Of a stretch of 38,860 nucleotides of DNA, positions 1 to 12,208 are shown one piece after another. Positions within the stretch are counted from its first letter, which is position 1; each line of letters starts with the position of its first letter. The stretch spans positions 1 through 38,860 of the forward strand of contig WOYV01000044.1 in NCBI GenBank assembly GCA_011620585.1, written 5' to 3'. A model generated the notes under the pieces. That model was not told the origin of the DNA. It saw only the letters and a list, made by a program, of their open reading frames with translations, and searched no databases. Origin of the DNA: Draconibacterium sp. Lineage in GTDB: Bacteria; Bacteroidota; Bacteroidia; Bacteroidales; Prolixibacteraceae. The translations under genes and the position numbers were made by a program.

Positions 1-133
1 AAGATTGATTTTCGATGCCAAATTAAAAGTTTTTTTTATTTTTTTTATAAAAGGGGGGTTACCTTTTTCGCTTTTACGGAATATATAGGTGAATGTGTAT
101 TTATAAAGTTTAACGAATTTAATCTATATTACG

Positions 134-280
134 ATGAAAAAGGTACAGGGACAAGCAACAGAAAATACTTTTAGTTTTGATTTCGAAGTTTTAAGCAACG
201 AAGAAATGAATATGCTTAAAGGTGGTGCTGAACCAGTAAAATCTCGTGATAGAGACGTTTTTGACTTAGAAGAAAATTAA
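134..280 (+). CDS. Double-glycine leader peptide, putative RiPP/secreted peptide precursor (48 aa)
   Basis: This short ORF runs from ATG 134 to TAA 280. It has a lysine-rich start (MKK), a middle segment LSNEEMNMLKGG ending at Gly30-Gly31, and a 17-residue acidic tail beginning AEPVK and ending DLEEN. The L-S-x-E-E-M-x-x-L/I-K-G-G pattern is the hallmark of the Bacteroidota GG-leader natural-product precursor family (TIGR04149-like), whose leaders are expected to be cut after GG by C39-peptidase ABC exporters. The putative core has no Cys, one Ser and no Thr, so a lanthipeptide or sactipeptide is unlikely; Lys, Ser and several Asp/Glu would allow ATP-grasp crosslinks, but that is speculation. 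No maturase or exporter is visible because the window begins 133 bases upstream and the next gene is convergent and unrelated. No clear ribosome binding site is seen, which is usual here. Confidence 0.72.
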   Translation: MKKVQGQATENTFSFDFEVLSNEEMNMLKGGAEPVKSRDRDVFDLEEN

Positions 281-367
281 GCCTATATACAGAACCAATT
301 AAGTTGTTAATACAGGGGGTTAAGGCGGGACGCGTTTTAATTCCCTTTTGTGTTTCTTAAGGCATTT
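281..367. other. Convergent intergenic gap
   Basis: This is the spacer between the GG-leader peptide and the convergent methyltransferase gene. It holds G-rich then T-rich sequence with only a weak stem (GGGA near 327, TCCC near 342). A terminator could be here but the pairing is too short to call. Confidence 0.3.
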
Positions 368-1510
368 TTATTTTTTCTCCATTTTTCCATCAAAAATCTG
401 ATACTGGTTGAATTTGCATTTTAATGCACCGTTCATCAGTTCTATTTTAGTATTTGGTTTTAATCCAACAAATTTCATACTATCTGCTGCTGCACTGAGT
501 ATCCAGGCGTCGTTTCCTGTATATTGGTGTTTTAGGCGTTCGCCTATCATCTGATACAATCCGTCTAAATTTGCTTCTATTAAACGTTCTCCGTAAGGAG
601 GGTTAGTTATAATTGTGCCATTTCTGAAGTCTATTTGTAAATCCTTAAAATCGGCTTTTTGAAATTTAATTTTATTAAATACAAGCGCCCTGCGTGCATT
701 GGTTTGCGCATTTAAAAGATTACCTGATGAAATATCTGATGCATAAATGGTATGGCGGAATTCTCTTCTGGGAGTGGGTTCGATAACTTTGTCCCAAAGA
801 AGGGTATCAAAGTCGTGCCATTTCTGAAATGCAAACTCCTTTCTTAATTTTGCAGCCGGAATATTATGAGCGATCATAGCCGCTTCGATTGGCAGCGTTC
901 CGGATCCGCACATGGGGTCCATAAAATCGGAATTACCATACCAGCCGGCAAGCATTATCATTCCGGCGGCCAAAACTTCATTTAACGGGGCCTCGCCTTG
1001 TTTTATCCGGTAGCCACGCTTATGAAGCGACTCACCTGAACTGTCGATTGATAATGTACAACTGTTTTCGAAAATGTGGACATTAATGATAATGTCTGGT
1101 TCATCGGTATTTACATCGGGCCTCTTTCCGGTCTTTTCTCTAAAGTAATCGGCAATTGCATCTTTTACTTTCAACGAGGCAAACATCGAGTTCCTGAAAT
1201 CATTGGAATTGATTACCACACTATCGATGCGAAAGTTTTCTTCGATGGATAAATATTTCGACCAGTCGATGTTTTTTGATTTCAGGTAGAACTGGTCCAC
1301 GTTCTTAAACTGAAAATATTCTATTTCTTTTAAAACCCGAAGTGCAGTGCGAAGCTGGTAGTTTGATTTGTAGATCAACTCCAGATCACCTTCGTAGTAT
1401 ACGGCACGGTTTCCGCGACGGACATTTTTTCCTCCAATATTTTTTATTTCCCGGGCCAGAACATCTTCAAGTCCGGCAAGTGTTTTTGCAATAAGCTTAA
1501 AATCTTTCAA
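368..1510 (-). CDS. rlmL: THUMP-domain class I SAM-dependent RNA methyltransferase, RlmL-like
   Basis: This 380-residue protein likely methylates a guanine N2 of 23S rRNA, as the RlmL half of E. coli RlmKL does at G2445. An N-terminal ferredoxin-like/THUMP region (about residues 1-160) for RNA binding is followed by a Rossmann methyltransferase domain. SAM motif I is DPMCGSGT (198-205) and the catalytic motif is NPPY (303-306), typical of exocyclic amine methylation of G or A. The length fits the stand-alone Bacillota/Bacteroidota family (YpsC-like), not the fused E. coli enzyme. It begins 17 bases after the epsC stop, so the two are probably cotranscribed. The exact target base is inferred from family membership; older annotations call such proteins N6-adenine DNA methylases, which the THUMP region argues against. 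Confidence 0.82.
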   Translation of the reverse strand: MKDFKLIAKTLAGLEDVLAREIKNIGGKNVRRGNRAVYYEGDLELIYKSNYQLRTALRVLKEIEYFQFKNVDQFYLKSKNIDWSKYLSIEENFRIDSVVINSNDFRNSMFASLKVKDAIADYFREKTGKRPDVNTDEPDIIINVHIFENSCTLSIDSSGESLHKRGYRIKQGEAPLNEVLAAGMIMLAGWYGNSDFMDPMCGSGTLPIEAAMIAHNIPAAKLRKEFAFQKWHDFDTLLWDKVIEPTPRREFRHTIYASDISSGNLLNAQTNARRALVFNKIKFQKADFKDLQIDFRNGTIITNPPYGERLIEANLDGLYQMIGERLKHQYTGNDAWILSAAADSMKFVGLKPNTKIELMNGALKCKFNQYQIFDGKMEKK

Positions 1511-11356: not shown

Positions 11357-12208
11357 TTATAGGGTTGAGAAGTTGGCCTGGTTTTTAATAAAATGGATCG
11401 GAGTTCCTGGAATAAAACCTGTCAGCCACTTGGCACAGTAGTCCATCCCTGCTTCTTCCGATTTAACGTGTCCCACAAAAATCACCGCCTTATTCTTGCC
11501 TTGATAAGCCGCATCGTTTACATATAAATAGGTTTCCCATTCATTAGCTTCACCTGCAACCATCACTTCCACGTCGTCGCTACTTAGCATTTGAAGGTGG
11601 CGCGACCCTCCCGGAGCTCCCACAGCCAGTCCCATTTTTGTGAATTCCATATTCGGATTACCGACCACACGGACCGTTTCAAGACCGAGTTTTTCTTTTA
11701 AGGTTTCGGCATAGTTTTTTACGCTTTGTTTTGGAAGTTCGTAGTTGGTTGGCGAACCGTTTACCGAATAGTTTCTGATGCCCAGTTTTTCTATCATTCC
11801 TTCATAAATCCCATCGGGTTTGGTCATGTGAATGTGGTCGTGGAAACGGAAAACTACCAGCTTGTTTTTCTGAATAAAATCCATTTTTTGCTGAAAAACA
11901 GGGTCGTCCTGCAGGTTCTCGGTTCCGTCGAGATGACTGTAAAAAATCGGTTCGTGTGTGATAATAAAATTGCATCCCAGTTCCACCGCCTTTTCGAGAG
12001 TAGGCATATCGGCAAACATGCACACTGCAATTCCTTTAAGGGGCGTTTGTGGATCGCCGGCTTTGTATACATCCACGGTTTCGCTGAGCCAATCACAGGT
12101 AAGGTGTTTTTTCATTTGTTCAACTACCTCGTCGGGAGTATTGGGTGTGACTTTTTGAGCGAAAGAAAAGAAGGGTATCACCAGAAGAATAAGAATGACT
12201 ACTTTCAT
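11357..12208 (-). CDS. NIF3-like dinuclear-metal protein with a signal peptide
   Basis: The 283-residue product begins with a clear signal peptide (about 1-18, ending FFSFAQ) and continues as a NIF3/YbgI-like domain. Metal-site motifs are visible: FIITHEPIFYSH (81-92), HDHIHM (113-118) and a late FVGHVKSEEAG, where His plus the Glu four residues on matches the His215/Glu219 pair of E. coli YbgI. In most NIF3 proteins the first motif is HH; here the second position is Glu86. NIF3 proteins are usually cytoplasmic hexamers of uncertain activity, so an exported copy is unusual. It is probably first in an operon with gntP and the VOC gene, which suggests periplasmic handling of a compound taken up by GntP, though this is inference only. 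Confidence 0.82.
   Translation of the reverse strand: MKVVILILLVIPFFSFAQKVTPNTPDEVVEQMKKHLTCDWLSETVDVYKAGDPQTPLKGIAVCMFADMPTLEKAVELGCNFIITHEPIFYSHLDGTENLQDDPVFQQKMDFIQKNKLVVFRFHDHIHMTKPDGIYEGMIEKLGIRNYSVNGSPTNYELPKQSVKNYAETLKEKLGLETVRVVGNPNMEFTKMGLAVGAPGGSRHLQMLSSDDVEVMVAGEANEWETYLYVNDAAYQGKNKAVIFVGHVKSEEAGMDYCAKWLTGFIPGTPIHFIKNQANFSTL

Follow-up and report, generated by a model that had tools for sequence, protein, structure and literature searches.

A conserved double-glycine peptide gene of Draconibacterium shares a promoter box with an ECF sigma factor/TPR-CHAT module: a candidate peptide signalling circuit in Bacteroidales

The open reading frame at the left edge of the Draconibacterium sp. 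DNA analysed here (a stretch of 38,860 nucleotides, hereafter the window) raises the question of what a small double-glycine (GG) leader peptide is made for in this organism and with which genes it works. The ORF (134-280, forward strand) comprises 48 codons and is translated as MKKVQGQATENTFSFDFEVLSNEEMNMLKGGAEPVKSRDRDVFDLEEN, in which a leader (residues 1-31) is followed by the 17-residue core AEPVKSRDRDVFDLEEN, which contains neither Cys nor Thr, exactly as the initial annotation had described it. That annotation had also taken the product for a peptide matured and exported after a double-glycine cut, had considered the Cys-free core unsuited to lanthionine or thioether chemistry, and had proposed an undescribed RiPP or signalling locus in case modifying and export genes should lie upstream. 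The objection to lanthionine and thioether chemistry holds, and so does the double-glycine leader, with maturation by a C39 exporter being probable. As to the proposed locus, signalling is our best reading, whereas no RiPP maturase was recognised beside the peptide. Since the first base of the window is also the first base of its contig (C76) and the assembly holds no DNA to the left, the left neighbourhood was taken from related genomes.

The leader is of the LSxxEMxxLxGG type on a short peptide, as in C39-exported double-glycine peptides. Curated models recognised the leader alone: TIGR04149, which the initial annotation had suggested running on the ORF, scored 18 bits (16.6 when the whole genome was searched), below its cut-off of 25, so that by the curated rule the peptide falls outside that family, and the Pfam Mersacidin model gave 14.8 bits against a cut-off of 27.6, again over the leader only. 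Conservation in related genomes, on which the initial annotation had made its reading depend, is evident. Among 37 genomes of the genus group (Draconibacterium/Maribellus), homologues were found in 30 at E<=1 and in 25 at E<=1e-3; the five weakest matches proved to be GG peptides on reading, and in G022 a diverged copy that the peptide search had missed stands behind the same promoter box. Other families of the order gave a single match in 24 genomes, at E 0.6, which is probably due to chance. Of named species, the genome collection includes Draconibacterium aestuarii, D. orientale, D. mangrovi, D. sediminis and Maribellus maritimus, which together with uncultured kin account for 8 loci in total. 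Searches with the peptide itself and with TIGR04149 revealed no other GG peptide in the genome from which the window derives, which carries only one copy of the gene. Downstream, a hairpin at 314-346 (forward strand) resembles a terminator; it is the one such structure found, where shuffles give 0.5, and its folding (z -2.7, with 4 of 200 shuffles equally good) constitutes fair evidence for that function. The conserved right neighbour, an RlmK/L-type methyltransferase gene (368-1510, reverse strand), lies outside the system and anchors the synteny.

Loci in which the gene is multiplied bear on the core itself. The peptide is single in 9 of the 20 genus loci fetched and present in three tandem copies in the other 11, and tandem copies within one genome have unlike leaders and nearly identical cores, for example GTPKSRDKDIFDFEEE. 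In within-genome pairs from the 11 three-copy loci (core pairs of unequal length dropped; two near-identical loci, L035 and L036, both included), the cores differed by 107 synonymous and 41 amino-acid changes in 508 codons, and the leaders by 110 synonymous and 205 amino-acid changes in 528 codons. Because synonymous differences are as frequent in the core as in the leader, selection at the protein level best explains the likeness of the cores, and gene conversion as its cause is disfavoured on the same count. The GG and one Arg are invariant among 20 aligned peptides, while in the diverged G022 core the sole Arg stands at another place, early in the sequence, and lacks the SRD context. In further copies from three loci (L028, L029 and L030, in G023, G016 and G035), the core is followed by a C-terminal extension (..EEALNWVEWLKNWLGKSK or similar). 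On these comparisons ORF 134-280 is a real and conserved gene for a double-glycine peptide.

What lies to its left is alike throughout the genus. In all 20 fetched loci a TPR-CHAT gene on the reverse strand diverges from the peptide, its start being 132-139 bp away on the upstream side, which by synteny places this start at or just outside the window edge (position 1, reverse strand). Beyond it, 19 of these loci have an anti-sigma-like gene and 17 have a gene for an ECF sigma factor, the remaining ones being those whose fetched stretch ends too early. In the window's own genome, contig C123 holds the sigma gene (G000:C123:20158-20742, 92% identical to the query), an anti-sigma-like gene and the 3' half of the CHAT gene (G000:C123:22366-24033), inside which the contig ends. 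This end, taken together with the synteny of the relatives, most likely reflects an assembly gap between C123 and C76 that spans CHAT codons 1 to about 394, that is, the signal region and the TPR part. In another genome of the genus (G029:C402) the same gene breaks at residue 398, and the two breaks may come from a TPR part that varies between strains in the source samples. The CHAT gene was matched in two pieces in G035 (C165:9560-12134) and has one in-frame stop in G028 (C95:10171-13014), the sister genomes being intact in both cases. Presence of peptide and CHAT agreed in 34 of the 37 genus genomes (29 with both, 5 with neither), and in the three discordant ones (G016, G023, G029) the contigs are short or end near the gene. 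An ECF sigma/anti-sigma/TPR-CHAT module thus appears to be what the contig end concealed.

The peptide and this module are connected by a promoter box. Upstream of the ORF, an ECF-type box at 56-86 (forward strand), consisting of GGGTTACCTTTTT (56-68), a spacer of 10 bases and GAATATAT (79-86), is common to the peptide and the sigma factor gene of the module. It is followed by GAATGTGT at 91-98 on the same strand, which is invariant across 21 aligned upstream regions and probably lies near the 5' end of the transcript; these regions have in common GGGTTACCTTTT, the spacer, GAATATAT and then GAATGTGT. The box precedes the start of the sigma gene by about 40 nt in the window's own genome and in the 17 genus loci that reach it. 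A search with the box pattern yielded 73 sites in the 37 genus genomes, of which 32 had a site and 20 had exactly two, compared to 1 site for the reversed pattern as a control. The two sites per genome in the fetched loci belong to the sigma gene and the peptide, and in G029 one of the two sites belongs to another gene. The weakest peptide matches of the genus also have the box upstream (G028, G016, G035) or a one-base variant of it (G001), the upstream stretch of G023 being too short to reach its position. Among 12 loci with a GG peptide in other families of the order, which are described below, the box was found at both genes in 7: unaltered in L146, L149, L150, L151 and L155, with one base changed at the sigma gene in L154, and in the same altered form, GGGGATATTTTTCA, at sigma gene and peptide in L185. 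It was not found at both genes in the other five (L161, L169, L181, L183, L184). A sigma factor gene and a target with a common promoter box are characteristic of an ECF sigma regulon, and the pattern is what an autoregulated ECF sigma factor with one main target would look like.

The box also occurs elsewhere. In six loci (L126, L131, L132, L135, L136, L138) it precedes genes for a conserved protein of 120-133 aa that begins MKxxAKLIHQTxxSYLPTAFPAHYYGMPNGKI... and is a candidate output gene of the sigma factor; an NCBIfam scan of the L131 member gave no match. In L132 (G027:C36) an ATP-grasp gene (Pfam) lies about 1.9 kb downstream of the extra box, not beside a GG peptide, and a gene resembling PLP-dependent decarboxylases (by reading) is also found downstream of this site. 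Behind the box sites of L124, L125 and L127 stand GGAAGGACGC and a conserved stretch with no clear ORF nearby, possibly a small RNA or leader.

The proteins of the module suggest how such a regulon might be controlled. In the genus the TPR-CHAT protein has 929-964 aa with TPRs and a CHAT domain (Pfam PF12770, E 7e-62 and 2.5e-57, plus TPR_12), and a His and a Cys, which we take to be the CHAT catalytic dyad, are invariant in 8 of 8 sequences. The combination of TPR repeats with a CHAT domain carrying the His-Cys dyad is that of a TPR-CHAT protease, its activity being predicted. A signal-like N-terminus and a C-terminal TM-like helix, both read from the sequence, suggest that the protein is membrane-anchored and periplasmic. 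The sigma factor scored above the cut-offs for Pfam Sigma70_r2 and for sigma70-ECF. Its putative anti-sigma partner, a protein of roughly 500 aa with one TM-like helix and a TPR tail, owes this designation to gene order, the TM-like helix and a weak match to NF052375 (E 0.0046). The AlphaFold model of the anti-sigma-like protein had a mean pLDDT of 43.7, with a poor N-terminus and a usable TPR tail, and that of TPR-CHAT was confident for the TPR solenoid only (residues 31-320, block means 73-95), with the CHAT domain modelled poorly. A Foldseek search with the latter pointed to a likeness with peptide-binding TPRs, with LGN/Pins near the top and RapI at rank 50 (E 5.7e-6); since only the solenoid was modelled confidently, these matches concern the TPR and are unspecific. 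The TPR part is the least conserved portion of the protein, with a mean identity per 40-residue block of 0.36-0.51 at 41-400, compared to 0.54-0.83 in the CHAT half. Across 17 loci core identity tracked TPR identity when CHAT and sigma were controlled for (partial Mantel r 0.43, permutation p 0.0006), while the partial r between core and CHAT domain was -0.09. With more control genes the core-TPR value was 0.33 (15 loci), and the leader, taken as a control, gave 0.39 with the TPR and 0.54 with a PnuC-like neighbour. Because the leader tracks the TPR likewise in this wider control, we give the comparison little weight, and the signal for coevolution of core and TPR is weak.

A peptide of this kind would be expected to depend on a C39 exporter. 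The C39 domain (PF03412) was found in 36 of the 37 genus genomes. The window's own genome has two such exporters, one at G000:C51:9051-11240 with an HlyD-like gene at 12040, and the other at G000:C16:903-3116 beside a thioredoxin-like gene (by reading), and a pattern search found no GG peptide beside either. The C51 exporter is 58-66% identical to exporters linked to the sigma loci of other families, compared to 25-28% for the C16 exporter, and the C51 type is present in 34 of the 37 genus genomes (best match per genome at least 62% identical). Of 14 genus genomes with a single C39 match, 12 have the C51 type and 11 of these also the peptide; the two others (G024, G026) have neither the C51 type nor peptide nor CHAT. 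In G015 and G019, which are 70% and 93% complete and fragmented, the C51-type exporter is present and neither peptide nor CHAT was found. The exporter is thus not linked to the peptide in the genus, while it stands right beside it in eight loci of other families, so that an exporter of the kind sought by the initial annotation is found next to the peptide in those eight loci and elsewhere in the genome in this genus, while modifying genes were not recognised beside the peptide. The initial annotation would have given up its reading if no exporter lay within 15 kb, and in this genus none lies beside the peptide; this rule was too strict, because the peptide gene is conserved in the genus despite the distant exporter. 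Overall, the evidence linking exporter and peptide is circumstantial but good.

The locus-linked exporters emerged from the order at large. Homologues of the sigma factor (E<=1e-25) were present in 73 of 247 genomes of the order, and the 40 sigma loci fetched (4.9 to 16.5 kb each) contained CHAT-TPR in 32, an anti-sigma homologue in 39, a C39 exporter in 10 and an HlyD-like protein in 7. In 12 of the 32 CHAT loci, from eight families, a GG peptide adjoins the CHAT 5' end, its nearest copy within about 300 bp; it is divergent from CHAT in 11 of them and on the same strand in L149, and L161 has four tandem GG peptides with an identical core tail. The GG pattern occurred 13 times in 16.8 strand-kb within 600 nt of CHAT on the divergent strand, and 22 times, some of them true copies, in the other 1123 strand-kb of these loci; a mononucleotide shuffle of the 40 loci gave 12 matches compared to 35 real ones in 1140 strand-kb. 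A C39 exporter was found in 8 of the 12 GG loci and in 0 of the 20 other CHAT loci (Fisher p 4.7e-5, a value that ignores kinship and compares stretches of unequal length, four CHAT loci being cut at the relevant end). An exporter is therefore present both within the genome in the genus and at the locus in most GG loci of other families. Five GG loci also carry a HisKA gene (L169 and L181 by reading; L161, L183 and L184 by Pfam), lined up in four cases with a second anti-sigma-like gene; LytTR proteins are encoded in two of the five.

The peptide is apparently not the only partner that the protease can have. No GG peptide was recognised in 20 of the 32 CHAT loci of the order, four of which are cut at that end. 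In four inspected loci without it (L153, L157, L159, L168) a secreted-looking protein of 409-441 aa is encoded beside CHAT, preceded by the box in three of the four. The two members scanned with Pfam, those of L157 and L159, contain a T9SS sorting domain. This arrangement suggests that the CHAT partner may be any secreted product, as if GG peptide and secreted protein were alternatives. Two loci with exporter, sigma and anti-sigma and without CHAT (L173, L178) showed no convincing GG peptide. Beyond the order, CHAT was matched at E<=1e-50 in 16 of 198 genomes of the phylum, the window's own included, and the absence of a GG peptide at the 17 CHAT loci outside the order (15 genomes) indicates that the protease works without one. 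In a CHAT tree the 12 GG rows of other genera are scattered and form no single clade; the well-supported branches force 3 or more changes in GG presence, in a bootstrap that had not yet converged.

Taken together, these observations lead us to favour, tentatively and with a little less than even confidence, an exported GG peptide signal in a positive-feedback loop that runs through TPR-CHAT and the anti-sigma/sigma pair. Acting at the common box, the ECF sigma factor would transcribe the GG-peptide gene as well as its own operon (sigma and the TPR-tailed membrane anti-sigma). Cleavage after the GG and export would fall to a C39 ABC exporter, in the window's own genome presumably the C51 exporter with its HlyD-like partner. 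The mature product, acidic and probably unmodified, would act back on TPR-CHAT, taken to be a membrane-anchored protease of the periplasm and encoded divergently from the peptide, by way of the TPR solenoid. The protease would then cleave or otherwise relieve the anti-sigma protein, and the sigma factor so freed would produce more peptide, closing the loop. For the first step, the box, and for the gene content the sequence evidence is direct, and synteny, core constraint and exporter linkage in other families emerge from the comparison of genomes; periplasmic location, the pairing of exporter and substrate and the feedback are deduced from these, and peptide sensing by the TPR and protease action on the anti-sigma would follow by analogy. 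A more far-reaching proposal would see here quorum sensing of a new class among the Gram-negative Bacteroidota, with a C39-exported unmodified GG peptide, a periplasmic TPR-CHAT reader, anti-sigma cutting, sigma release and co-diversification of core and TPR between species; it is on balance doubtful.

The strongest of the rival explanations, unlikely and still to be reckoned with, holds that the peptide, instead of activating the CHAT protease as its ligand, serves it as a substrate or inhibits it, so that the core would be cut (e.g. at the conserved Arg) or would block the active site, tuning a periplasmic protease. In clan CD, to which CHAT belongs, cleavage after Arg or Lys is common, and both the invariance of one core Arg together with the GG in the 20 aligned peptides and the immediate divergent pairing of the two genes would suit such a role. 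However, the G022 core keeps its single Arg only early and outside the SRD context, the cores of other families have no common Arg motif, and core identity follows the TPR rather than the CHAT domain, the last of these arguments being a weak one.

It is improbable that the peptide is a class II-like bacteriocin or microcin, itself unmodified, whose export is governed by an envelope-stress sigma factor, with the CHAT module as a stress circuit. A GG leader with a C39 exporter is common to class II bacteriocins, and the leader gave weak, subthreshold matches to bacteriocin and pheromone models. Moreover, Bacteroidales antimicrobials are reported to induce a sigma/anti-sigma regulon (PMC9308784). 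The core, however, is short and strongly acidic, the tandem copies keep one core instead of diversifying, and no immunity gene was recognised among the genes read.

We give still less credence to a graspetide-like RiPP in which Ser/Thr/Lys and Asp/Glu side chains of the core are joined by an enzyme encoded elsewhere. Conserved Lys-Ser/Thr and Asp/Glu in the core, the weak matches to GG leaders of modified peptides (TIGR04149, TIGR04194) and the ATP-grasp gene downstream of the extra box in G027, away from the GG peptide, could be read in its favour. Yet neither the reading of translations nor Pfam/NCBIfam scans of selected genes, which leave aside 29 ORFs confined to a single genus locus each, revealed an ATP-grasp, LanM or dedicated radical SAM gene next to the peptide, in the genus loci or in the 12 GG loci of other families. 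When ORFs of at least 200 aa were scanned for CxxxCxxC, neither the 20 genus loci nor the initial 14 kb of the window gave a match. The 12 GG loci gave two: in L185 a HemN-type radical SAM gene, which lies beyond the sigma gene and away from the peptide, and in L181 an integrase (by reading). The genus neighbours are ordinary, namely the RlmK/L-type methyltransferase, a hexapeptide transferase, an NMN transporter and an AAA protein. In the loci examined there is neither an ATP-grasp ligase beside the peptide nor a core motif common to the families, as a graspetide would have, and the cores of other families have no common pattern. Finally, a chance ORF or a decayed leader without function, as might be suspected from a short frame at a contig edge that is single in its own genome, is excluded by the conservation, the core constraint and the conserved promoter box.

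The favoured signalling loop has relatives among known systems. Gram-positive GG pheromones such as ComC/BlpC work with a C39 exporter, a histidine kinase and a LytTR regulator. The present system resembles them in its GG leader, C39 exporter, short Cys-free species-specific core and a promoter common with the regulator, and some loci of the order carry HisKA and LytTR genes; unlike them, it has a conserved relay of ECF sigma, anti-sigma and TPR-CHAT in Gram-negative Bacteroidota, and the genus loci examined showed no histidine kinase. As in the RRNPP receptors RapI and its kin, the modelled TPR solenoid may serve as a peptide receptor; those receptors sit in the cytosol and respond to re-imported peptides, whereas here the solenoid is fused to a protease that presumably lies outside the cytoplasm, and LGN/Pins TPRs match better. 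The leader resembles, at 18 bits, those of the TIGR04149 radical SAM-modified GG peptides of Bacteroidota, unlike which our peptide is below the cut-off of 25, has a Cys-free core and no recognised radical SAM maturase. Craspase/CASP (type III-E CRISPR Csx29 TPR-CHAT, Csx30, CASP-sigma) likewise couples a TPR-CHAT protease with an ECF-type sigma factor and its inhibitor, and in CASP the protease is reported to cleave the inhibitor (PMC10028731). Unlike in Craspase, the protease here is, by reading, signal-like at its N-terminus and carries a TM-like helix at the C-terminus, the anti-sigma-like protein is a TM-TPR protein and the partner is a GG peptide. The genes read included none that was noticed as a Cas gene. 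An unusual ECF sigma factor with an envelope-spanning anti-sigma is also known from the BcpT-responsive pair of Bacteroidales; that anti-sigma has an outer-membrane barrel, and the portion of the paper at hand describes no CHAT protease or GG peptide (PMC9308784). Among the matches listed in full-text literature searches, whose coverage leaves aside most subscription papers and preprints, none showed a GG peptide signal coupled to an ECF sigma factor or a GG peptide next to a TPR-CHAT protease. The parts are of known kinds, and it is their coupling that appears to be undescribed.

In summary, a caspase-like protease, anti-sigma control and the export of a peptide come together in a compact module found in eight families of one order. 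A test bed with a predicted ligand, receptor and exporter is available in named species, Draconibacterium orientale and its kin, and the box can serve there as a reporter. The common box at the peptide and the sigma factor gene suggests that Bacteroidota have a chemical signalling circuit that has apparently not been described before.
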